Assembly: GCA_016209605.1 (NCBI GenBank) | Contig: JACQVS010000146.1 | Location: 1 to 64,000, forward strand | Source of the DNA: Planctomycetota bacterium | GTDB lineage: Bacteria > Planctomycetota > UBA8108 > JACQVS01 | Direction: 5' to 3' | Length of the DNA: 64,000 nucleotides | Shown: positions 1 to 11,405 of the stretch, piece by piece | How positions within the stretch are numbered: the first letter of the stretch is position 1 | Layout: each line of letters opens with the position of its first letter | Made by a program: the position numbers and the translations under genes | The notes under the pieces: generated by a model | What the model was told of the DNA's origin: nothing | What the model saw: only the letters and a program-made list of their open reading frames with translations | Databases searched by the model: none

Positions 1-381
1 CCTTCTTATTATGCACGGAGGTTGTTACGGCGATTCCTGCTTACCGGAAATGGAGTTCCGCCCGCGCGCCCTGTTCTTGGGACGTCTCACGTTACCCCCA
101 TGTTGGTTTTCTCCGGCTTTGTTCTCGCGGCGCGCGGTCCTTCCTCTCCTGGTCATGCCAGCTCTCCTTTCGTCCTCCCTTTGGCCCGGGTTGTATCGCT
201 TTCGTCTTTATATTTTTGCTGAAAAATTTATTTTAGCAACACCGCGTCGTTAAGTTCTTTGCGGCGTTGCGTTTGTCGCTCGCGGAAATCGTTTTTCACA
301 GCGACCCATCGGACCAACTTGAGAAGCAGCTTTCACTGTTTTCTCGGTTTTTTCGCTGGGTCGCTTTTTTTGGTTTTTTTT
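1..381. other. Upstream region of the ubiquitin-like operon, no confident gene
   Basis: I see no recognisable gene here. Short open frames exist but their translations are low-complexity and match nothing known. The + strand is strongly pyrimidine-rich, with long T runs near 360-380 just before the first likely start codon. I could not find a convincing -35/-10 pair. A frame-compatible TTG at 259 would extend the first gene by 41 residues into a hydrophobic leader. The operon may also begin to the left of the window. Confidence 0.5.
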
Positions 382-1044
382 ATGGCGGATCAGCTTGCAC
401 TTACTTCATTGTGTCCCCTCGGCTCGCAGCCCACCGCGGCGGTTTCGGTCCGATGGTCGTCCGTGGCGCTGGCTGCGGCCGAGGGTACGTTTTCTTCCTT
501 GTTCGTCGACAGCGCTGGTGTGCCCCGTCTCGCGCCGGTCGATGCTTCCCTCGGGGCTGGATCCTGCGCTCTGGCCCGGATCCGGGTTTTGCTTCCTGAG
601 AATCCGGCCTTGCCGCGCTCGCTGCTGGTCCTTCCTGTTAGCCAACAGCTGCTGATCAATGGTGTCCGCCCCGCCCTTCTGAAGGTGGCGGCGCCGGGCG
701 ATATTTTGACGCTTGCCGGCCAGCACTGGCTTCTGGTCCGCCATTTTCGTCCCGAGCCCGAGGCCGTGCCGGCCGCGCTCGCCGAGGAAAACTGCCCCGT
801 GTGCGGTATGGCGCTCCTGCTTACAAAAACCATACTGCGCTGCGTGAACGGCTGCGCCTATCATTGTGAGGATCCCTCTCAGCCGGTCAATCGCTCGGGC
901 TTGCTCAACTGTTTCTTCGAATCCCCCAGTTGTGTCATCTGCGACACGGAAAAGCGTCTCGCAGACCAGCTCATTCCGGATCCGTCAAGCCTGCACTGGG
1001 TCGACTGCTTTAAAAATTTCGTGAACGGAAAGGTGGCGTCATGA
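382..1044 (+). CDS. RING/treble-clef-like zinc protein of the Ub-like operon (candidate E3 or adaptor)
   Basis: The protein has 220 residues from the ATG at 382. Residues about 80-125 form a beta-rich stretch (LLING..., PGDILTLAG, WLLVRHF) that resembles an FHA-like or similar all-beta module. Then comes a cysteine cluster: C138-x2-C141, C154-x3-C158, H161/C162, C177, and C184-x2-C187. This ligand spacing is close to, but not the same as, a canonical RING. Small RING-like proteins are known beside bacterial and archaeal Ub-like genes. The stop overlaps the next start as ATGA, so it is translationally coupled to the E1-like gene. The start is uncertain: no Shine-Dalgarno precedes 382, and a TTG at 259 is in frame. 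An E3 role is inference; it could be a structural zinc adaptor. Confidence 0.6.
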   Translation: MADQLALTSLCPLGSQPTAAVSVRWSSVALAAAEGTFSSLFVDSAGVPRLAPVDASLGAGSCALARIRVLLPENPALPRSLLVLPVSQQLLINGVRPALLKVAAPGDILTLAGQHWLLVRHFRPEPEAVPAALAEENCPVCGMALLLTKTILRCVNGCAYHCEDPSQPVNRSGLLNCFFESPSCVICDTEKRLADQLIPDPSSLHWVDCFKNFVNGKVAS

Positions 1045-2234
1045 TCGAGGCAGCGGCGCAATTATCAAATTTCCATGCTAGTCCAATCCTGAATGGGTTG
1101 ATCCAGAGCGAGCCGATCCAGCAGGGGCCGATCCAGCCCGCGGTGTCGGGCTGGGCTTGGGCGGCTCTAAACGCGCTGACGGCGGTCATGGTGGGGGTCG
1201 GCGCGATTGGCCGCGTTCTCAGCCAGCACTTATTTTGGCTTGGCATCAGGAATTTCGTTCTGGTCGATTATAAAAAATACCGCGACGTTTCCGTCTCCAC
1301 CCAGTGCCATGCGGCCGAGATCGGCCGCTACAAGGCCGCCGTCGTCGCCCAGCAGCTCCGCCGGCAGGGGGCCCGCGTGGCGGGGCTGCCCATTCCCGCC
1401 GAAGAGCTCGATCCCGGCTGGCTGCGTCCGCCCTGCATCGTGGTGGCATCGGCCGACCGGCACTCCGCCGATCTGGCCGCGCACAAGCTGGCCCTGGCTC
1501 AAAATGTGAGGTTTTACAAAGTCAATCTGGAGCCCGCGTTGATACTTTCCAGCTTTCGCTTTTATGACTACACCATGGATCCCTTGGACCGGTGCCTGGA
1601 GTGCGGCTGGGATGACTCCACTTACCTCCGGCAGCGGTCCATCCACTCCTGCGAAGACGTGAGCGAGCGCTCCACCGGCAGCCCGCGGCCCCTCAGCGAG
1701 TTGACCGCCGGTTGGGCGGCGCTGTTGATCGTTTCGTCTCTCGTCGATGCCGCCGCGGCCGAGCGGTTGCGCGGCCGGGAGTTCCTCCTCTCTCCCCTCG
1801 GGCCGGTGCTCTCGGAATCCATCTTGCCGGAGAAGACTGATTGTCTGGGCTGCCACCGGCGCTCCGGCTCGCTGGTTTATCTTGTCCAGTCTCCCGGCGA
1901 GATCCGTTTTCACGATCTCGCTCTTCAGGCCGGCTTTCAACCCGGCGAGGAGCTGTGGGTGGGCAGCTCCGGCCTCTTCGCCAGACGGTGCCGCTGCTCG
2001 AAGTGCTGCAAGGAGGTAGCCGGGCTCTGGTGGGTCAAGTTCGTGCACCAGGCCGCCGGCTGGTGCTCGTGCGGCGGCCGCCTGCTCCCTGTGCCTTTTC
2101 ATGCCTCCAGCGGCCTCTCGCGGCAGGAACTCCACGGGGTGTGGTCATCCCCGCTTTCCTCGCTCCGCGTGGGCAGGCGGGCCGCCGTGTCTCTCAAGGG
2201 GTCGGGGCGGGAAGTCACTTTCATTTTGCGTTGA
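1041..2234 (+). CDS. E1-like ThiF/MoeB-family activating enzyme with cysteine-rich C-terminal extension (E1-A)
   Basis: The protein has 397 residues. A Rossmann nucleotide-binding loop G52-V-G54-A-I-G57 is followed by the ribose-binding Asp at D76 (VLVDYKKY), as expected for adenylating E1/ThiF enzymes that activate a ubiquitin-like C-terminus. Two CxxC pairs, C185/C188 and C268/C271, match the structural zinc site of the family. C204 (IHSCEDV) lies where the thioester cysteine would be expected. Beyond about residue 290 is an unusual extension with C317, C319, C322, C323, C342 and C344, probably a second zinc site. The gene overlaps the RING-like gene by 4 nt and precedes the E2. E1 identity is well supported; which of the two modifiers it activates is inference from proximity. 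Confidence 0.86.
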   Translation: MIEAAAQLSNFHASPILNGLIQSEPIQQGPIQPAVSGWAWAALNALTAVMVGVGAIGRVLSQHLFWLGIRNFVLVDYKKYRDVSVSTQCHAAEIGRYKAAVVAQQLRRQGARVAGLPIPAEELDPGWLRPPCIVVASADRHSADLAAHKLALAQNVRFYKVNLEPALILSSFRFYDYTMDPLDRCLECGWDDSTYLRQRSIHSCEDVSERSTGSPRPLSELTAGWAALLIVSSLVDAAAAERLRGREFLLSPLGPVLSESILPEKTDCLGCHRRSGSLVYLVQSPGEIRFHDLALQAGFQPGEELWVGSSGLFARRCRCSKCCKEVAGLWWVKFVHQAAGWCSCGGRLLPVPFHASSGLSRQELHGVWSSPLSSLRVGRRAAVSLKGSGREVTFILR

Positions 2235-2267
2235 CTGGAATAACTCGTGCTCTCATGGAGGAAGTTC

Positions 2268-2891
2268 ATGCAATTTCAGCAATCCTTGGTCGGTAGTAAG
2301 GTCTGGCAATTGAAGAAGTCATCCATCCGCCGGGACCTGGAGGCGCTGGCCGGCCGCAGCCCGGTCCTGGAGATCGTCGATTACCTTGACTCGGGCCCGG
2401 AAGTCCGCGCCGTGGCCTGCTTTCAAGTTCCGACGCTCGTCCAGCCCGTGAACGGCCAGGTCTGGGTCGCGGGTCCGGTCCTGGTCGGCCTCCGCTACCA
2501 CGAAAATTTTCTTTCCAGCCCTCCCATCGCCTGGGAAGTGGCGACCCTTCTGGGGCCGCCCGAGGCCATGCATCCGAATCTTTCGCAAGCCGGAGGGCTA
2601 TGTTTAGGAGCGCCGGTGGCCGGTTTTTCGATGGAGATCCTGCATCTCATCTTCGCGGCCATCAGCCTGCAGTCCTATAACTGCATCGAATGGCAGAGTC
2701 TTGACCTCGAGGCCTCCGCTTTCGTGCGCTCCCATGCCCATTTCTTTCCCATCGTCTCCACCGGGCTTTTCGAGGAACCGGACCTCGAGCCGCGCTATCG
2801 CCGGCATAAAGGGGACTTTTCGCCGTTCGCCTTTCCGCTCTCGCCCCGGTCAGCCCGGCGTGGGACGCCGGTAGGGGGGGTCCCCGCATGA
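2268..2891 (+). CDS. E2/UBC-fold conjugating enzyme with HPN motif
   Basis: The protein has 207 residues. The start at 2268 is fixed by GGAGG at 2257-2261, six bases upstream; an in-frame GTG at 2247 has no such site. The core reads M-H102-P103-N104-L-S-Q-A-G-G-L-C112-L-G. The HPN motif and the cysteine eight residues after its Asn match the catalytic arrangement of eukaryotic E2 enzymes. A hydrophobic helical segment follows (MEILHLIFAAISLQ), then a helix around residues 134-148, as in the UBC fold. Many bacterial E2-like proteins lack the HPN, so this one is notably eukaryote-like. The expected role is to take the modifier from E1-A on C112 and pass it to a substrate. The C-terminal 40 residues are basic and probably disordered. 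Confidence 0.87.
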   Translation: MQFQQSLVGSKVWQLKKSSIRRDLEALAGRSPVLEIVDYLDSGPEVRAVACFQVPTLVQPVNGQVWVAGPVLVGLRYHENFLSSPPIAWEVATLLGPPEAMHPNLSQAGGLCLGAPVAGFSMEILHLIFAAISLQSYNCIEWQSLDLEASAFVRSHAHFFPIVSTGLFEEPDLEPRYRRHKGDFSPFAFPLSPRSARRGTPVGGVPA

Positions 2892-3832
2892 GCGACTTCT
2901 TCATCTCCAAGCCCCAGGTTGAAGAGGCTCTCCTCAAGGTCGGCTGCGCGCGGCGGTCTCCGGGCGTGTTCGCGCTTGCCGCCAAACCTCCCCTCGCCCT
3001 CTACCCTCTGCGGCTGGCCGGCGGCTGGTGGCGCTGGCTCTCATCTCCCGTCAAGGCGGGCCATGTGGCCCCGGCAGCCGTCCTGGATGCGCCGGCGCCG
3101 TCCGGCCCGTTCAAGTGGCTTGCCGCCAAGGGGAAAAAGGGGTTGCGGCTGGCGGCCGATCTTCCGGAATGCTTTGAAGACGACGCGGCCGCCATGGGCA
3201 TCCTGGAGGACGGTCTTGCGGAAGCTCTGCCAGATGGATCGTCCGGCGGACAGGCGCCGGGCCATCTCGAGGTCTGGGCCGAAGATCTGGTGTCGGCCCT
3301 GCGCCGGTTCTCTCGGGGCGATGGTTGCTCTCCTTCCATTGCCAAGCCGCAGTCCCCAGGCGCCGATCTGGTCGATTGGCTCGCGCGGCGCGGCTGGCTC
3401 GGCTCGCTCGATGGCGATGAAATCCGCATCCAGATGACCGGCCCCCAGTACTGCAATACGGTTCACCTGCAGGCCTCCGCTCCGGCCGGCGGCCTCGCCC
3501 TGGATATGGAGCTCGCCGAGGTGAACGGATGGGGCGAAGAGTCTCTGGCGGCGGCGGCGCTCCTCGCCCAGGAGGCCGGCGAACGGCTGCGGCTGGTCCG
3601 TCTGGCTCTCGTTCAACAATCGGAGCGGCGGTACCTCTCGGCCCAGGTCCATCTCGGCCGCCTCCCCGCCCGGTCGCCATGGCTTCCATTGGCCCTCGAT
3701 GCCTTGCGCGCCGCCGCATGCGTGTTAGCGAAGGAAGCGCCGGCTCTGGCGGATCCAGATCTGGCTCGGTGGATTCTTTTCAGGACTTTTGGAACCAGCA
3801 GAAAGGAGGTTAACCATGGTCGCGACGCTTGA
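2888..3832 (+). CDS. Unknown 314-residue protein conserved by position in the Ub-like operon
   Basis: I do not recognise this family. The gene is clearly real: it overlaps the E2 by 4 nt (ATGA), keeps the operon's codon bias, and its last 17 nt overlap the next gene. Residues about 1-75 look globular with a Trp-rich patch (GGWWRW). Residues about 150-300 form an alpha/beta unit with TVHLQAS, LDMELAEV and YLSAQVHLG strands and a helix LAAAALLAQEAG. This weakly recalls the YbjN/type III chaperone-like fold, which is a low-confidence guess. There is no signal peptide or membrane segment, so it is probably cytosolic. From its position between the E2 and the modifier gene it may be a substrate adaptor, E3-like factor or E2 cofactor. 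Confidence 0.8.
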   Translation: MSDFFISKPQVEEALLKVGCARRSPGVFALAAKPPLALYPLRLAGGWWRWLSSPVKAGHVAPAAVLDAPAPSGPFKWLAAKGKKGLRLAADLPECFEDDAAAMGILEDGLAEALPDGSSGGQAPGHLEVWAEDLVSALRRFSRGDGCSPSIAKPQSPGADLVDWLARRGWLGSLDGDEIRIQMTGPQYCNTVHLQASAPAGGLALDMELAEVNGWGEESLAAAALLAQEAGERLRLVRLALVQQSERRYLSAQVHLGRLPARSPWLPLALDALRAAACVLAKEAPALADPDLARWILFRTFGTSRKEVNHGRDA

Positions 3833-4109
3833 GCGCGAGATCGCCGAACCGCCTTCGGAGTTCATCGATGTGCAGGTGAAGGACCTTTCCGGCCACCAGC
3901 GCATGCGCATCAACCGGCTGAAGGCGTCAACGCGCGTCCGCGAGCTCATCGGCATGTCGCAAGCTTCCATGAGCGTCCCGCCCGGGATTGACTGGTTGCT
4001 CAGGGACTCGAAGACCTCGAGACTCCTGCGCCACGATCAATCCGTGGGCGAGGCCGCGCATGAAGGCTTCGCCGATTTGACCCTGCAGCCGGATGCCCGG
4101 CTCGGGTGA
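3816..4109 (+). CDS. Ubiquitin-like modifier A with exposed C-terminal Gly
   Basis: The protein has 97 residues. AAAGGAGGT at 3802-3810, five bases before the ATG, is the strongest ribosome binding site of the operon and fixes the start. Residues about 16-97 follow the beta-grasp pattern: a strand FIDVQVKDL, a second strand RMRINRL, a helix with TRVRELIGM, and a late strand FADLTLQPD. The chain ends in PDARLG, a single Gly at the very C-terminus, so no processing would be needed before E1 activation. Lysines K22, K36 and K66 could allow chains. The length is typical of a short N-terminal tail plus one Ub fold. The gene starts inside the preceding one and is followed by a hairpin before the JAMM gene, consistent with high expression. 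The fold is inferred by pattern, not measured. Confidence 0.74.
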   Translation: MVATLEREIAEPPSEFIDVQVKDLSGHQRMRINRLKASTRVRELIGMSQASMSVPPGIDWLLRDSKTSRLLRHDQSVGEAAHEGFADLTLQPDARLG

Positions 4110-4121
4110 TTTTTTTTCTCT

Positions 4122-4163
4122 CCGGCTGGCTTCGGGGGAGCCTTGCTCTCCGAAGCCGGCCGG
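4122..4163 (+). terminator. GC-rich hairpin between modifier A and the JAMM gene
   Basis: The arms at 4122-4135 and 4150-4163 pair over 14 bp with a single G:T pair and a 14-nt loop. The + strand has only a short T tract after it (ATTTTG), so it would be a weak terminator at best. More likely it attenuates transcription or protects the 3' end of the short modifier message, giving more modifier than downstream enzymes. It sits in the only gap of over 90 bp inside the operon. Confidence 0.5.
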
Positions 4164-4202
4164 GATTTTGATGCTCGGTTTTGTTAGTGAGGCCGGTCGA
4201 TC

Positions 4203-5294
4203 ATGTTTCACGATCCTTATGTATACGCGGTCTCGGTTGGGCGCCCTGGGGCGGCTGGGCCGCCGGCCCGACGGCCGGTAGACAAGAACTATCTCTTGCC
4301 GATCATCGATGACGGGCTGTGGTTCGCTCAGCGCCGCGGCGTCATTGGCATGGACAGGTCGCGCGCCCGCTGGGAGCTGCTGCCGGTGTTCGTGAACGGG
4401 AGCGGCGGCCAGGTCCGGAGCTTGCGCATGCGCGTTTCAGAAAGCGGCCCGGCCCTTTCGCGGGATTACTCGCTGGGCGTTTTTCAGGAACCGGCGCAGG
4501 AGCTGCTGCGGGAGCTCATGAAAGATGGCAAGTTGGGCCTCGAGGATGAAATCGTGACCCAGGTGCTTGCCTTCAGGCCCCAGCCGGCGGCTCGATCGCC
4601 GATCGCGGCTGCCGGGCCGCGCGCCGCGGCGTCGCCAGCCGTGACGCCGGTGGTGGAGGAGCGGCCGCTGCCGGTCTTGCCCGGCCGCCTGGAGGAATGG
4701 CAAGGGCGGGCAGCGGCGGTCAATCCCCAGTCTGGACAGGAGGGGGACACCCCCGTCTTCATCCTCCGCTCGGTTTTCGAGCGGGCGCGGGCCTCCTGCC
4801 GCCGGCCCGGCGAGCTGGAGGGCGGCGCGTTCCTCACCGGCCGCCTCTACCGGCAGGCGGAGCCGGTGCCGGAAATTTTTCTGGCGGTGGAAGGATCGTT
4901 CGAGGCCAGCCACGCGCTTCAGGAACGGTTCAGCTTGACGTTCACCGCCGGGACGTATGGCGCCTTCGAGGAGCAGCTCGAGCGCCGGCGCCGGCGCCTC
5001 AATCGCCCAGAGGAAATTCTCGCCGGCGTGGCCCACGGCCACGGCTTCTTGCCGGGTCTGGGCGAGGACCGACAGCCGCTTTGCCCCGCCTGTCCCAAAA
5101 GGGCGGAATGCGGCTTGCACTCGGCCTTCTATAGCAGCGATGACCTGGCTTATCATCGCGCTCTTTTCAGCCGGCTGCCGTTCGCCCTGGGTCTGGTGTT
5201 CGGCCTCGATCCACGCGAGCACGATGTGGTGCGGGCCTACGGTTACCGCGATGGCTCCATTCAGGAAAGGAGCTTTTGGCTGGTCTCGGATTGA
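4203..5294 (+). CDS. JAMM/MPN+ isopeptidase with zinc-knuckle-like insertion (JAB-A)
   Basis: The protein has 363 residues. The C-terminal half carries a JAMM metalloprotease signature: Glu in E206-G-G, H278-G-H280, and S311-x2-D314 in FYSSDD, with downstream family-like text (LAYHRALF, ALGLVFGLD). Between H280 and S311 there are 30 residues instead of the usual seven. The insert contains C294-x2-C297, C303 and H306, a likely zinc knuckle. Residues about 30-130 form a separate alpha/beta domain of unknown type, joined by a Pro/Ala-rich linker (about 125-165). The predicted role is removal of modifier A from substrates or chains, coupled to the ATPase encoded next. The start ATG at 4203 has only a weak ribosome site, so expression may depend on read-through past the hairpin. 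Confidence 0.86.
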   Translation: MFHDPYVYAVSVGRPGAAGPPARRPVDKNYLLPIIDDGLWFAQRRGVIGMDRSRARWELLPVFVNGSGGQVRSLRMRVSESGPALSRDYSLGVFQEPAQELLRELMKDGKLGLEDEIVTQVLAFRPQPAARSPIAAAGPRAAASPAVTPVVEERPLPVLPGRLEEWQGRAAAVNPQSGQEGDTPVFILRSVFERARASCRRPGELEGGAFLTGRLYRQAEPVPEIFLAVEGSFEASHALQERFSLTFTAGTYGAFEEQLERRRRRLNRPEEILAGVAHGHGFLPGLGEDRQPLCPACPKRAECGLHSAFYSSDDLAYHRALFSRLPFALGLVFGLDPREHDVVRAYGYRDGSIQERSFWLVSD

Positions 5295-5323
5295 AACAAA
5301 GAGAAAACCAAAGGAGCATGCTC

Positions 5324-7072
5324 ATGAAAATAAACCTGCCGCCGGGGGCTGACGACCCGGTCAAGAACGCCTTGTCCATCCTGGAGGACTCCTCCATGCC
5401 CCCGAAGGCACGGGCGGAGTTTCTTCTCCACAGCGCCCAGGCGCTCGGCTACGACTTGATGAATCCGCTTGCCAGGCTGCTCGACCGCTGCGACAAGGGG
5501 CGCGAGCTGGAGAAGCTCAACGCCCAGCTCGCCGCCAAGCTGGCGCAGCTCGAGGAGGAGAAGCGCCAGCCGCTCGTGCCGGAGATCTTTTTGCGCTCAG
5601 TCGATAGGGGCGATGGCGCCTGCTGGGGCCTGATCGAGTCCCAAGCCGGCCCGCTGCTCTGCCCCATGGACGGCGGCCTCACCGGCCTGAGACGGGGGGT
5701 TTACGTGCTTCTCGAGCGCTCTTCCGGGAAGATCGTCGACCGCGATGGGGTGATCGTCCCCACCGGCGAGATCGCCAAGGTCGAGGAAGTCCTCGATGGG
5801 GATCCCGTGCAGGTGATCGTCAGCCTGCACGACCGCCGTTTCAAGGCCCAGGTGTCGGAGGCGGTGCAAAGCTCCGGCGAGCTGCGTCCCGGCGCCGAGG
5901 TGCTGTTCGATGCGTCCCGGCGCTTTGTCCACGACATCCTCCACCCGCGGCTCGAGGGGGAAGATCTCCTCACGCCGGCGTCGGAGCTGTCGGGATTTTC
6001 CTTGCAAAACCTGGGCGCCCCCCATCCCGTCATCTTCGAGATCGTGAACAGCGTCAAGCGGCGCCTCCTCCATCCGGAGTGGGAAAGCCTCCTGCAGGCG
6101 CGCCAGCGCCGCAGCTACCTCTTCCACGGCATCACCGGCTCGGGAAAATCTTCCTCGATCAAAGTGATCGCCAATCTCATCGCCGATTTCATCGAGGAGC
6201 TGACCGGCGTCCGGGAGCCCAGGATGGTGGTGGCCTCGTGCGCCGATTTTTATTCTCCGTTCTTCGGCGAGTCCGAGCTCAAAGTGGCGCGCTGGTTCAA
6301 GAAGCTGGGCGCCATTGCCCGGAAGGCGGTCCTCGCCAAGGATGGGCGGCGCATCGTCCTGCCTCTTCTCGTGGTCTTCGAGGAGCTCGAAGGATTGATT
6401 CGCGGCCGCGGCGAGTTCGGCGGCTCCAGCCATCTCTTCGACCGCATCTTGTCGCTCATCCTGCACAAGATGGATTCGGTGACCAACGAGCTCGAGGCGC
6501 CGATCATCTTCATCAGCACTACCAACATGATGATGCTCTTGGATGCAGCCGGCCTCCGTCGCTTTGGCCAGCGTCAGATTATGTTCTCCGCTCTTGATGC
6601 CCTGTCGGCTTATCAGGTGCTCGAGAAGAAACTGCCGGCGGACATGCCTTACAGCACCCCTCCGGGGATCCCGTCTTCTTCGGCGCGCCGGCAGTTGCTC
6701 GAGTCGCTGATCCACTACCTCTTCGGCCGCCATGATGAACAGGCGATCGCCGAGGTCACGCTGCGTGATACATCAAAAAAAATCGTCTCTAGAAAGGATG
6801 TCATCACGGGCAGTTTTCTGGAAACCGCCTTGTGCGTAGCGATCGATGAGGTCCTCGACCGCTCCACTGCAGAGGGGGAGCTTCGGGGGATCGATGCGGA
6901 TACCATCACCCGGGCTCTCGCCCGCCAGTTCGATGCCCTGGCGGCGAACTTGCATCCCCACAATTTGCGGGATCTCGTCCCCCATCTCTTCCCCGAAGAG
7001 GCCGTTCAAATTGCCAGCGTCCGGCCGGTGAAGCGCTACGGCCGCCGGCCGGTGGATTACTACTTCCAGTAA
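5324..7072 (+). CDS. Mpa/ARC-like proteasomal AAA+ ATPase
   Basis: The protein has 582 residues. AAGGAG at 5311-5316 fits the ATG at 5324 (seven-base spacer) better than the one at 5318. Residues about 55-82 are a charged coiled coil (KGRELEKLNAQLAAKLAQL). Residues about 85-210 are beta-rich and fit OB-type domains. The AAA+ module has Walker A G269-I-T-G-S-G-K275-S, a pore-loop-like FYSPFFGESE, Walker B LLVVF-E353-E354 (Glu replaces the usual Asp), sensor Asn N401 and Arg-finger candidates R412/R413. Coiled coil, OB, then AAA+ is the order of Mpa/ARC, the unfoldase of actinobacterial proteasomes. The chain ends VDYYFQ; YFQ resembles the HbYX tail that docks ATPases on 20S cores. No core subunit is in the window. 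The gene sits between the two Ub-like modules. Confidence 0.88.
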   Translation: MKINLPPGADDPVKNALSILEDSSMPPKARAEFLLHSAQALGYDLMNPLARLLDRCDKGRELEKLNAQLAAKLAQLEEEKRQPLVPEIFLRSVDRGDGACWGLIESQAGPLLCPMDGGLTGLRRGVYVLLERSSGKIVDRDGVIVPTGEIAKVEEVLDGDPVQVIVSLHDRRFKAQVSEAVQSSGELRPGAEVLFDASRRFVHDILHPRLEGEDLLTPASELSGFSLQNLGAPHPVIFEIVNSVKRRLLHPEWESLLQARQRRSYLFHGITGSGKSSSIKVIANLIADFIEELTGVREPRMVVASCADFYSPFFGESELKVARWFKKLGAIARKAVLAKDGRRIVLPLLVVFEELEGLIRGRGEFGGSSHLFDRILSLILHKMDSVTNELEAPIIFISTTNMMMLLDAAGLRRFGQRQIMFSALDALSAYQVLEKKLPADMPYSTPPGIPSSSARRQLLESLIHYLFGRHDEQAIAEVTLRDTSKKIVSRKDVITGSFLETALCVAIDEVLDRSTAEGELRGIDADTITRALARQFDALAANLHPHNLRDLVPHLFPEEAVQIASVRPVKRYGRRPVDYYFQ

Positions 7073-7096: not shown

Positions 7097-7444
7097 ATGA
7101 TGTTCAAGGAACCCCAACAGGTTGCTGCAACCGCCCCCGTTTCCCGGCTCACCGCCCCGCCCCAGAGAGAGCCGGCCGGCGCCGCCGAGGGCTGCGCCGC
7201 CGCCGGGGCCAACGGCGCGTCGGTCCTGGTCCAGCACGGGATTCACTTCAAGTCCTATCCGGTGGCCGGCATGACCGTCGCCCAGGTCCGCGGGACGCTC
7301 TCCGCGCAGCTCCACATCGACCCCGCGTCGGTGGCGGTGATTGGCGGCGTGATCGTCGACGATGAAAACGCCCGCGTCGTGACCGGCAAGGACCAGCTGT
7401 TGACCTTCACCAAGAGAAGCTCGGTGCGCGGCTGCGGCCGCTGA
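7097..7444 (+). CDS. Ubiquitin-like modifier B (Prok_Ub/ThiS-like beta-grasp)
   Basis: The protein has 115 residues. AAGGAGG at 7084-7090 sets the start. Residues 1-40 are a Pro/Ala-rich tail. Residues about 42-108 look like a compact beta-grasp: strand ASVLVQHGIHF, turn and helix TVAQVRGTLSAQL, strand SVAVIGGVIV, and strand QLLTFTKRS. The C-terminus is SSVRGCGR: Gly residues occur at positions 112 and 114, but one Arg follows, so activation may need trimming unless the Arg is tolerated. This contrasts with modifier A, which ends in a bare Gly. Its place directly before E2-like, JAMM and ThiF genes matches the Ub-like protein C of PRTRC cassettes, as I remember them. Homology is by pattern only. 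Confidence 0.66.
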   Translation: MMFKEPQQVAATAPVSRLTAPPQREPAGAAEGCAAAGANGASVLVQHGIHFKSYPVAGMTVAQVRGTLSAQLHIDPASVAVIGGVIVDDENARVVTGKDQLLTFTKRSSVRGCGR

Positions 7445-7459
7445 ACGGGGAGTGTAAAC

Positions 7460-8317
7460 ATGACTCTAAAAAATCGTCAGCCCCGGTTGGCCGTGGAGCA
7501 GGTGGTGATCCGAGAGGACAGCGTCGAGTTGCATCTTCCCGGCTCTGCCGTGCAGACCCTGCCGGCCAGCGCCCTGATCGAGGCCGTCCAGGCGTACAGC
7601 ATCCGCGGCCTCGGCCGCGATGCGCTCCCCGACAACATCAAGTGGAAGGTCGAGTGCGGCAAGATGACGATCTACATCGTCGAGCTCAAGCCGGAAGTGC
7701 GCTCGGTCCTGTGGATCAGCTCGAACAGCGTGGCCCCCTACGGGCCGGAAGCCAAGTACGAGAGCTACCGGCTGGCCTTCCCCTTCGTGGTCTTGAAGGT
7801 CCCGTTCGTCAATGGGCAGTTGATCGAGGCCGCCGAGCTTTTTTACCGCAACGCCCCGTTGAGCTCTCTCGACGATGAGCTTTTCTGGTCGAACCTCCTG
7901 AACGTCAGCCCCCGTTCCCACGGGTGCACCGCCTGGGTATGCACGCAGTACCTGGCTGATGAAATGAACCAGCTCGCAGCCAAGCTGCGCCGGCCGCTCA
8001 CGGAGGTGGAGGCGCTGCACTGCTTCATCCTCCATCTTTTCGGGGGCGGCCTCAACCGGAGCAGCGAGGCGCATGAGGGCATGAGCTGCTTCGGCAAGGC
8101 GGCCATGGACAAGGTCGATCCGCGAGTCACCGACGTGACCCGTTGGCAAGCCGCCTCGGAGAAGCCGGAGTTCATCCTCGGCGTGGCGTGGAAGCCGGCC
8201 GGCCACACCATCCGCAGCTTGATCCTCGACCAGCTCGACCGCTCCGGGGCGCGCCGGGATCTCGGCGATGCGGCCGAGCTGGTCAGCTTGCTCCTGGCGC
8301 CTCGAAAGGCGGGCTGA
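7460..8317 (+). CDS. E2-like protein (Prok-E2_D / PRTRC protein B type)
   Basis: The protein has 285 residues, preceded by GGGGAG at a seven-base spacing. The central part (about 60-165) has alternating strands (MTIYIVELK, VLWISSNS, AFPFVVLKVPFVNG) and then NVSPRSHG-C156-TAWV-C161. This resembles the divergent E2-fold proteins that accompany PRTRC ThiF and JAMM proteins, in which a cysteine follows a buried strand. There is no HPN motif, so it differs from the E2 of module A. The C-terminal region (about 170-285) is alpha/beta and unassigned. Order and spacing (modifier B, this gene, JAMM-B with a 2-nt gap, ThiF-B) argue for a role with those proteins. Whether it is a catalytic E2 or only an E2-fold adaptor cannot be told from sequence. 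Confidence 0.6.
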   Translation: MTLKNRQPRLAVEQVVIREDSVELHLPGSAVQTLPASALIEAVQAYSIRGLGRDALPDNIKWKVECGKMTIYIVELKPEVRSVLWISSNSVAPYGPEAKYESYRLAFPFVVLKVPFVNGQLIEAAELFYRNAPLSSLDDELFWSNLLNVSPRSHGCTAWVCTQYLADEMNQLAAKLRRPLTEVEALHCFILHLFGGGLNRSSEAHEGMSCFGKAAMDKVDPRVTDVTRWQAASEKPEFILGVAWKPAGHTIRSLILDQLDRSGARRDLGDAAELVSLLLAPRKAG

Positions 8318-8319
8318 TC

Positions 8320-9051
8320 ATGGAGGCGGATATGGTGGCTGGAGCCATCGAAGTCATCGAAGTCCTCGCCAAGCGCCCGGGCCAGGAGCTGCCGCCGCTG
8401 GCCGAAGGCCAGCTTCGCTACGTCATGGCCGAAAACGGCCTCTTCCTCGAGCGGCGTACGGCCATGTTCACCACCTGCTGCCGCGTCGAGCGCTGCGCCG
8501 CCGGCTTGTCGCAGCATGAAGAGGCTTGCGAGTTGCTCTGCGGGCCCATCCCGAGAACGCTGGTCCGCGCCATGGTGGCCTTCTTCCGGGCCGCCTACGA
8601 GCACCACGGCGGGGAGGCCGTCCTCCTGCTTCTTTTCCACCCTTTGGAGCGGCGCTTCCGCTGGCTGTGCCCTAGCCAGACGGTGCGGGTTTACGAGGAC
8701 TGGAAGGGCCGGTGGCAAGCCGGCATGGACATCGAGTATGACGTGCCCCTGGAGCTGCCATCCGGCTTCGTCCTCTTCGGCGACGCTCACAGCCACGCCG
8801 ACCTTCCCGCCTACGCGAGCTACCTCGACAAGCAAGAGGAGCATTTCAAGGATGGGCTCCACATCGTCCTGGGCCGCCTGCAGGCGGCGCACCTGGCATG
8901 GCATATCGACTTCGTCATCGATGGAAAGCGCTTCCCCCTCGATCCTGAGCGGGTCTTCGCCGCTGGCGACTGGCCCCCCTTCGGCTCCGTGCCGCCGGCC
9001 TGGATCGAGCAAATCAACATCAAGAGCTACACGAGCAAGAAATACTGGTGA
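8320..9051 (+). CDS. JAMM/MPN+ metalloprotease (JAB-B, PRTRC protein A-like)
   Basis: The protein has 243 residues. The zinc site is textbook: H157-S-H159, seven residues, S167-x2-D170 (HSHADLPAYASYLD), with E99 in HHGGEAVLLL as the likely catalytic Glu. The N-terminal 75 residues contain five Cys (TTCCRVERC, EACELLC), possibly a further metal site. The start lies 2 nt after the upstream stop, with AAAGGCGG as ribosome site, and its stop overlaps the ThiF-B start (TGATG). The expected function is cleavage of the modifier from conjugates or trimming of a modifier precursor. That would fit modifier B, which has an Arg after its last Gly. Unlike JAB-A it has no long insert between His and Ser. 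Confidence 0.9.
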   Translation: MEADMVAGAIEVIEVLAKRPGQELPPLAEGQLRYVMAENGLFLERRTAMFTTCCRVERCAAGLSQHEEACELLCGPIPRTLVRAMVAFFRAAYEHHGGEAVLLLLFHPLERRFRWLCPSQTVRVYEDWKGRWQAGMDIEYDVPLELPSGFVLFGDAHSHADLPAYASYLDKQEEHFKDGLHIVLGRLQAAHLAWHIDFVIDGKRFPLDPERVFAAGDWPPFGSVPPAWIEQINIKSYTSKKYW

Positions 9052-9839
9052 TGGATATGGACAGCGAGATTTCTTCCCCGGAAACCGCCGCGAGCGATAA
9101 AATCCCGCTCCTCCCGCTGAAAACGGAGCTGCTCACCCGCGGCCGCGTCATCGTGGCTGGCCTGGGCGGCATCGGCTCGATCCTGGCGCCCAACCTGACT
9201 CTTTTTTTAGCGTCGCTGCGCCGCCTGCCGATCCGCATCCAGCTCATCGATGGGGACAAGTATGAAGAGCGCAATCGAGAACGCATGGAGGTGCCGGCTT
9301 TCGAAAACAAGGCGGTGGCGCTGTGCCGTCAGCTCACCGAGAAATTCGGGCGTCCGAAGCTTTACATCCGGCCGGTGGCTCAGTATGTCAACGTCGAGAA
9401 CGCCAGCGATCTCATCCAAGAGCACGATGTGGTGTTCGCGTGCTTTGACCGGCACTCCAGCCGCAAGGTGCTGAGCGACCGCTGCGCGGAGCTGGAGAAC
9501 ATCATCCTGATTTCCGGCGGCAACGACGGCGTCGAGGAGGGCTGGCGCGGCACTTACGGCAACATCCAGATCTTCCGCCGACATGTTGGCGCCGAGCTGA
9601 ATCCGCCCCTCACCCGGTTCCACCCCGAGATCCAGAAGCCCGCCGACCAGGTGCCGGTGGAGTCCTGCGCTGACCTCGCGGGCAGCTCCGCCCCGCAAAT
9701 CCTCTTCGCCAACCTCGCCGCCGCCTGCGCCATGTGCTGCGCCTTTTACCGCATCCTGAGCGATGAGGGGAAGGAGAGGATCTTCGACGAAATCTGCTTC
9801 GACATCTACGAGGGAAGGTTCGTGCCGCAGGTTTTTTAA
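9051..9839 (+). CDS. ThiF-family E1-like enzyme (E1-B, PRTRC ThiF-like)
   Basis: The protein has 262 residues, with its start overlapping the JAMM-B stop. The nucleotide loop is G37-L-G39-G40-I-G42; D67 (LIDGDK) and N75-R76 (ERNRERM) with K87 complete the adenylation site of ThiF/E1 enzymes. C206 (VESCADLAG) is the candidate thioester cysteine, followed by SSAPQIL and a helix, as in the family. There is no CxxC zinc pair, unlike E1-A, and no C-terminal extension, so it is a minimal E1. It ends the operon; transcription then meets converging genes from the - strand about 40 bp later. By position it should serve modifier B. Confidence 0.9.
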   Translation: MDMDSEISSPETAASDKIPLLPLKTELLTRGRVIVAGLGGIGSILAPNLTLFLASLRRLPIRIQLIDGDKYEERNRERMEVPAFENKAVALCRQLTEKFGRPKLYIRPVAQYVNVENASDLIQEHDVVFACFDRHSSRKVLSDRCAELENIILISGGNDGVEEGWRGTYGNIQIFRRHVGAELNPPLTRFHPEIQKPADQVPVESCADLAGSSAPQILFANLAAACAMCCAFYRILSDEGKERIFDEICFDIYEGRFVPQVF

Positions 9840-9882
9840 GAAAATAATGGTTAAAGGCCGAAGGAAAAAAACCTATGGTATA

Positions 9883-11405
9883 CTAAATTTCGATAAACTG
9901 CCGGATCGGCCACTTGCAGGTCTCCGGCCTGGCATCGACCGGGCAAGCGCTGAAGCCGTTGGAGCTCTCGAAAGAGCAACCCATGTCCCACCATCCCGGA
10001 TCCCGCGTGTAGTCCCCGTTCGGCTCGGGGTAGGGATAAGGCGGGCTGGGGCCGCCCAGATAGAGGTGCTGGAGGAGGTAGATGGGATCGGTGAGATCGA
10101 AGCGGCCGGAGTCATCGGCATCGTCGGCATCGCCGCAGGTCACCGGCCTCCCCATGAAGAGCTGCTCCAGCATGGCGATGGCATCGGCGAGCTCCACCGC
10201 CCCATCGCGATTGGCGTCGCCGCGGACGAAGGACCAATCGAAACCGGTCTGGACCTCGAGCCGGGTCGGGTCACCAGCCCGATGCCGAGCAAGAGCGGGT
10301 TCTCGAAATCGTAGCCCCCCTCCGGGAGCCCCCAGTTGATCGACGTGGGGTTGGCCCTGTAGCCGATCACCAGGTCCTGAAGCCCGTCCAGGTCAAAATC
10401 GTGGAGCAGCACCGCCGTGGGATTGTCGCCGAGCGGATTGGGGGGTATGGGAAGCTCGTAATCGAACTTCTCCTCGAAGCTGCCGTCCCCCCGCCCGAGG
10501 AAGACGGCCAGGCGCCGGGGCCAGCTCCCGGCGATGAGGTCGAGATGCCCATCGCGGTCAAAATCGCCGACCGCCACGCCATCCGGGTGGGAGACCGCCC
10601 CATCAACCACCTGGTACTTGACCACCGGCAAAACCAAGGCTTTATCGAAACGGCCGTGGCCCAGGCATCTGTAGACGTGGATCGTCAAATAAAGCTCCCC
10701 ATCTTCAGGGTTGCGGAAATTGCCGACGGTGACGATGTCCTTGAAACCGTCGCCGTTCAGGTCGGCCACCCTGGCATTTCCAGCATGGAAGAAATCCGGC
10801 ACATCGACCTTTTGAAACTTCCTCCCCCCCTCGCCAAAGGCGATGAGGTTTTTTCCGGGCCCGCCGCCAAAGAGATCCTCCTCGCCATCCCCATCCAGGT
10901 CGACCACGGTGAGGCCGATATCGTATTCCGCGCCCTGGACAAACGGCACGACCCCCCCTTGCGGGGTGAGCGTGCCATCGGCCTTCCCCCAGAAGAGCAG
11001 CACCTCGGGGCTGCGCCCCCCGAGGACAAAGAGATCCCGGAAGCCGTCCTTGTTGATGTCGCCGCTGGCGAAGTGGGCCCCTCTGGAAAAGGCCACGGTC
11101 ATGATGCCGAACTTCCCATCGCCGTGGCCGAGGTAAATGCCTTGATCCTTGATCAGATCGAGCTTCCCGTCCCCGTTCACATCCCCGAAAACGGCGTTCG
11201 GCCAATAGCTGTCCGAAAAGCTCAAGTACTTGGAATCATCAAACCACCTCGTGCCGATGAGCCGGTTTCCATGGTTGAAGAAAATGTCCCTATAGCCCGC
11301 CGTCACCAGGAGGTGGGGCAAGGGCTTCCGGCCTTGAGCTGCCAGGGGCAAGGAGAGGAGGCCGAGGAACCCTAAAGCGGCCCCGAGCAGCCCGCGGCGC
11401 GCTCT
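9883..11405 (-). pseudogene. Secreted FG-GAP/VCBS-repeat protein with dockerin-like tail, frameshifted and lacking a start
   Basis: From about 11405 to 10270 the frame encodes FG-GAP repeats (DVNGDGKLDLI, DLNGDGFKDIV, DFDRDGHLDLI, DFDLDGLQDLV), a seven-blade propeller typical of secreted planctomycete proteins. A signal-peptide-like stretch (RRGLLGAALGFLGLLSLPL) precedes it, but no ATG, GTG or TTG lies between the upstream in-frame stop and that stretch. Near 10263-10270, in GGGTCGGG, the frame shifts by one base; the other frame continues smoothly as EVQTGFDWSF and two dockerin-like repeats (ELADAIAMLEQLF, DLTDPIYLLQHLYLGG) to a stop at 9883. Either it is a decayed gene or the consensus has an indel. 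Its 3' end faces the Ub-like operon. Confidence 0.72.

Follow-up and report, generated by a model that had tools for sequence, protein, structure and literature searches.

Whether a long, cysteine-bearing insert in the catalytic loop of a JAMM peptidase forms a second metal site, and what such a loop would do beside a proteasome-type ATPase, is the question raised by an open reading frame of a Planctomycetota bacterium (4203-5294, +, 363 aa). The frame lies in a stretch of 64,000 nucleotides, hereafter the window, which comprises positions 1 to 64,000 of contig JACQVS010000146.1 (assembly GCA_016209605.1). The original prediction, made from the letters alone, was that the insert is a small zinc domain of the C/C/C/H type that could read the modifier or gate the active site until the ATPase engages.

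The JAMM protein and its relatives

The translated frame confirmed the unusual spacing from which the prediction had started. Exactly 30 residues separate H278-G-H280 (5034-5042, +) from S311-x2-D314 (5133-5144, +; S311 codon 5133-5135, D314 codon 5142-5144), and this insert (residues 281-310; 5043-5132, +) holds C294 (5082-5084), C297 (5091-5093), C303 (5109-5111) and H306 (5118-5120). The protein itself had no match in Pfam, NCBIfam or PADLOC; three of its relatives match Prok-JAB and JAB. An AlphaFold2 model built from a 19-sequence alignment (mean pLDDT 84, pTM 0.82) and the fold matches delimit an alpha/beta N-terminal domain (residues 1 to ~130), joined through a linker of low confidence to a JAMM domain (residues ~180-363). 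For residues 180-363, the leading Foldseek and VIA matches were MPN/JAMM proteins. The best was the Caldiarchaeum Rpn11 homologue (6fno, 6fnn; Z 16.4 over 144 residues, 2.4 A), and the others included BRCC36, Rpn11, CSN5, AMSH, Cap3 (9ild, Z 13.9) and Npl4 chains. In the model, strand 272-279 bears the HxH and the S/D pair opens helix 312-322, so the long loop between them is compatible with the fold. E206, the upstream glutamate of the active site (4818-4820, +), H278, H280, S311 and D314 were invariant across the relatives in two alignments. Both the fold match and the full set of catalytic residues bear out the JAMM assignment, and on this basis the product of 4203-5294 is a predicted member of the JAMM superfamily, as a spacing variant and not the canonical form.

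A search of genome and viral contigs with the window JAMM as a single query returned no relatives, and a profile of relatives was needed. Profile searches revealed a family of three groups, A, B and C; weak tail matches (L007-L013, E 0.001-0.01) were dismissed as chance similarities. Group A, which includes the window protein, comprises L067 (G145) and L016 (G058), both from Planctomycetota, together with L068 (Verrucomicrobiia), L071 (Deltaproteobacteria/Myxococcota) and L116; L110 and L115 were assigned to it by sequence pattern. Its five members present in the tree were grouped with a support of 96/99. Group B (L052-L066, L111 and L114) spans Planctomycetota, Verrucomicrobiota, Acidobacteriota, Armatimonadota and Pseudomonadota. 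Group C is more distant (L025/L049, L028/L050 and L043/L051); its JAMM genes (L050:5717-6772, L051:8953-10005 and L049:3120-5267) have a similar gene context. In the 19-sequence full-length alignment, the other rows were 23-29% identical to the window protein.

The long insert was common to relatives from six bacterial phyla. Where the canonical motif reads HxH-x7-SxxD, the gap was 30 residues in the window protein and 22-30 in groups A, B and C, whereas the loop in the canonical bacterial and archaeal JABs compared had 7-8 residues and no such cysteine cluster. The long insert is thus, by alignment, a real family trait.

Gene content of the operon

The operon (259-7072, +) runs in the order RING-like, ThiF/E1, E2, 314-aa protein, modifier, JAMM and AAA ATPase. 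Its first gene (259-1044) encodes a RING-like zinc protein, a candidate E3, whose pattern CxxC..C..C..H..C..CxxC was recognized in a by-eye comparison with relatives; the counterpart in relative L053 gave a weak Prok-RING_1 match (E 0.14). The second product (1041-2234) is a ThiF/E1-like enzyme (Pfam ThiF 1.1e-6; 4e-27 for the E1-like gene of L053). The E2-like protein (2247-2891) carries an HPN..CLG motif and had no Pfam match. A conserved protein of 314 aa without a family match (2888-3832) is encoded after the E2 gene and before that of the modifier, and a similar-sized gene occupies the equivalent position in the relatives.

The modifier (Ubl1; 3816-4109, +), identified by alignment and by a beta-grasp model, ends in ..PDARLG. 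AlphaFold2 predicted the beta-grasp fold with a pLDDT of 88 from 13 sequences, and the structural matches (Foldseek/VIA) were ubiquitin, NEDD8, SUMO, ISG15 and, as the top match, the bacterial Ubl-deubiquitinase complex 8tyx. Its relatives terminate in -LG or -AG. The modifiers of L053, L057, L062, L063, L068 and L071 carry tails of 1-15 residues beyond this -AG/-LG, and such tails past the glycine imply proteolytic trimming, that is, maturation. With E1, E2, a ubiquitin-fold modifier with a C-terminal Gly and a JAMM protein all found together, the operon is, as judged by sequence and models, a predicted ubiquitin-like conjugation cassette.

Directly behind it stands a second, complete-looking cassette of PRTRC-like type (7097-9839, +), consisting of Ubl2 (7097-7444), a PrtB/E2-like protein (7460-8317), a canonical JAB (JAB2; 8143-9051) and ThiF (9048-9839). 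The same order was found in L068, and all but Ubl2 were recovered in L071.

The ATPase neighbour and Pup-ligase-like genes

Immediately downstream of the JAMM gene, 5276-7072 (+) encodes an AAA ATPase of the proteasomal (Mpa/ARC/PAN) type with an OB domain (Pfam AAA 1.7e-11; pup_AAA TIGR03689 5e-25, a match below the curated cut-off). The order modifier-JAMM-AAA, with the three genes immediately adjacent, was constant in all complete loci examined, across groups A, B and C. By eye, no conserved C-terminal docking motif of the HbYX type was seen in the AAA proteins.

In groups B and C, two genes of the Pup-ligase family lie downstream (PF03136 3e-82 and 3e-96 in group B members); they are absent from the window operon, and in group A the PRTRC-like cassette of the window, L068 and (bar Ubl2) L071 takes their place. 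Group B contains hybrid operons (L052-L065; for example, L053:4491-14607) in which E1, E2, RING-like, modifier, JAMM and AAA genes are joined by two Pup-ligase genes, with no recognisable Pup. Of a Pup-proteasome system, the Mpa-like AAA protein was present, and Pup (PF05639) was not found in 9 genomes. The genome of the window also has a solitary Pup-ligase-like gene on another contig (L108; C186:26000-44000, 8481-10364, -), which contains an inserted hydrophobic, membrane-like stretch and has no JAMM or AAA partner seen nearby.

In the window's genome (assembly 80% complete) and in G013, G016, G050 and G058, no match to a 20S/HslV-type protease (PF00227) was obtained. Matches to proteasome-fold proteases occurred in five of the seven other carrier genomes; these are single matches, and most of them are probably HslV, since the family also covers HslV (with matches in E. 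coli and B. subtilis). A strict role like that of Rpn11 at the proteasome would therefore be unavailable in the window's genome, unless the incomplete (80%) assembly lacks the protease.

These neighbours also suit an Npl4-like adaptor, in which the MPN protein would feed modified substrates to the AAA protein, the thiol loop would dock on the motor and catalysis would be secondary. The fold matches include Npl4, an MPN protein with zinc fingers that acts on Cdc48; the JAMM gene adjoins the AAA gene in all complete loci, and a proteasome-type protease was not found in the window's genome at 80% completeness. We nevertheless consider such an adaptor unlikely, as every relative retains E, HxH, S and D, residues that Npl4 has lost.

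Cysteines of the catalytic loop

Three of the four cysteines in the whole protein fall within the insert (P ~0.002 if they were randomly scattered). AlphaFold2 left the loop disordered, with block means of pLDDT 51-56 and stretches below 50. In the full-length alignment, C294, C297 and C303 were each invariant in 17 of 19 members, the window protein included. The same two members, L060 (Armatimonadetes) and L063 (Acidobacteria), lack all three cysteines but keep E, HxH, S and D, and both retain the operon. The triad also occurs in five further relatives (L016, L110, L111, L114 and L116), which brings the total to 22 of 24 relatives, window counted; L115, with a motif identical to that of L116, was left out of this count. 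Because the tree places L060 and L063, with modest support, among Acidobacteria sequences that bear the cysteines, their lack of cysteines suggests a secondary loss.

These results divide the claim that the C/C/C/H residues are conserved together. Across the alignments, the three cysteines are a unit, retained jointly or lost jointly, and appear to be under joint constraint, but H306 occurs in no relative. Homologues with the catalytic site and without the C/C/C/H set, which the original prediction had named as the observation that would tell against it, do exist in part, in the form of L060 and L063. Since these two dispense with the cysteines and keep the catalytic site, the cysteines are probably accessory and not needed for catalysis as such, and may serve as a loop stiffener or as a docking or regulatory element.

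In group A the cysteines are spaced CxxC-x5-C and in group B Cx2-4C-x7-C, whereas group C has four cysteines, CxxC-x5-9-C-x4-C, at the same loop position. Only group C carries four; the three-Cys members share three conserved candidate ligands. A column-by-column search of the alignment found no universal fourth ligand elsewhere in the protein among the three-Cys members, which tells against assuming a standard tetrahedral zinc site. A candidate fourth ligand is H318 (D314+4; 5154-5156, +). Most three-Cys members have H or C at this position; in group C, whose loop supplies a fourth Cys of its own, the residue is L or M. The pattern is suggestive of a ligand swap between the H318 position and the fourth Cys of group C, but it proves nothing, because H also stands at D+4 in both Cys-less members and in some canonical JABs. 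Taken together, a metal site, either zinc or iron-sulphur, is the best explanation of the thiol triad, with a fourth ligand that the sequence leaves unfixed.

An iron-sulphur reading can be made specific. Exactly three conserved thiols, spaced CxxC-x5-7-C and with no universal fourth protein ligand, would suit a three-Cys [4Fe-4S] cluster whose fourth site is open or variable and which acts as a redox or iron sensor switching the peptidase. The four-Cys form of group C, however, suits zinc equally, and we regard this cluster as improbable, to much the same degree as the adaptor.

The C3H zinc knuckle of the original prediction, in which C294, C297, C303 and H306 bind one zinc in a modifier-reading domain, fared worse. 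All four residues are present in the window protein at a plausible spacing, and three of them are conserved. At the position of H306, however, the other three-Cys relatives have T, N, A, S, Q, M or R, and a lineage-specific fourth ligand would be required in each. H306 was accordingly rejected as a conserved ligand, and the four conserved ligands in one short loop of a C3H/CCHC-type knuckle were not found. As a conserved unit, the small C3H zinc domain does not hold, with H306 unique to the window protein, and we now think this form of the site very unlikely. A metal-free thiol redox switch, in which reversible disulphides open and close the active site, would fit three cysteines beside that site with no fixed fourth ligand, but a CxxC and third Cys that are conserved and lost together are more typical of a metal site and group C has four cysteines, which makes the switch an equally poor candidate.

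Proposed mechanism

The explanation that we favor, with a probability of about 0.6, is that the gene encodes an active JAMM isopeptidase which acts beside an AAA unfoldase on the co-encoded modifier, and whose cysteine loop is most likely metal-binding. The JAMM protein would mature the ubiquitin-like modifier, strip it from substrates, or both. It would work beside the AAA unfoldase of the adjoining downstream gene, on which it probably docks. Its HxH-SxxD loop has grown from 7 to 22-30 residues and bears a conserved three-Cys cluster (four in the sister group), in which a second metal ion or cluster is most likely bound. This metal would fold and stiffen the loop at the entrance to the active site, and the stiffened loop could shape access for the tail of the modifier or for the motor. 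The data show the sequence, the predicted folds of the JAMM protein and the modifier, the catalytic residues, the joint retention and loss of the triad and the constant gene order; the metal binding, the isopeptidase activity and the docking on the ATPase we infer. As for the two functions originally suggested for the insert, reading of the modifier is possible, and gating of the active site by ATPase engagement is speculative.

A bolder version, which we hold to be doubtful, though less so than any of the alternatives above, is that a second metal centre in the catalytic loop senses the engaged AAA motor or the metal or redox state and switches tag removal on. The pathway, a bacterial one, would then combine a proteasome-type unfoldase with the conjugation of a ubiquitin-like modifier and, in relatives, with enzymes resembling Pup ligases.

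Comparison with known systems

The second half of the window operon resembles the PRTRC cassette, as its JAB2 matches PRTRC_A (3.4e-11); JAB2 has the canonical HSH-x7-SxxD and is a protein separate from the insert-bearing JAMM. Like the first half, the BilABCD, CBASS Cap2/Cap3, polyUbl and RING/E2/JAB/YukD-like operons bring together E1, E2, modifier and JAB. Compared with those bacterial cassettes, the window operon adds a proteasomal-type AAA protein beside the JAMM and the thiol insert, and many relatives add two Pup-ligase-like genes. Burroughs and others of the Aravind group reportedly described, in 2011, prokaryotic RING operons with E1, E2, RING, YukD-like modifiers and JAB. Parts of Iyer 2006 (PMC1779556) describe an earlier set of such bacterial operons, and the main text of Iyer 2008 (PMC2588565), on Pup ligases, makes no mention of JAB, E1-like or E2-like. 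Neither a thiol insert in the catalytic loop nor a fixed place beside a proteasomal-type ATPase was found in the literature searched, mostly non-subscription papers. As far as could be checked, these two features are new, with a possible overlap with the 2011 work.

Npl4, like the window JAMM, links an MPN domain with zinc-binding elements (here the putative metal loop) and an AAA unfoldase. Npl4 has lost the JAMM residues, lacks catalytic activity and carries its zinc fingers as separate modules; in the family of the window JAMM, in contrast, the catalytic residues are invariant. AMSH and AMSH-LP share the JAMM fold (Z ~14) and a second metal site, which is probable in the window JAMM. The accessory structural zinc of AMSH lies near the active site, with ligands after the catalytic Asp, in Ins-2, whereas the thiols of the window JAMM lie inside the HxH-SxxD loop.

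Rpn11 and its Caldiarchaeum homologue share with the window JAMM the fold, a ubiquitin-fold modifier encoded alongside and a proteasomal-type ATPase as neighbour. Rpn11 has the spacing HxH-x7-SxxD and its regulatory Ins-1 is located elsewhere; unlike the window JAMM, it has no thiol loop between HxH and SxxD. Eukaryotes commit a ubiquitinated protein to destruction at the step in which its tag is removed at an unfolding motor. It is possible that the JAMM protein described here is a bacterial counterpart of the tag-removing subunit of the eukaryotic proteasome. A simple operon with a single modifier, a single JAMM and a single proteasome-type ATPase would let this coupling be studied with few parts, and the relatives with three, four or no loop cysteines offer a ready-made natural experiment on the role of the loop.
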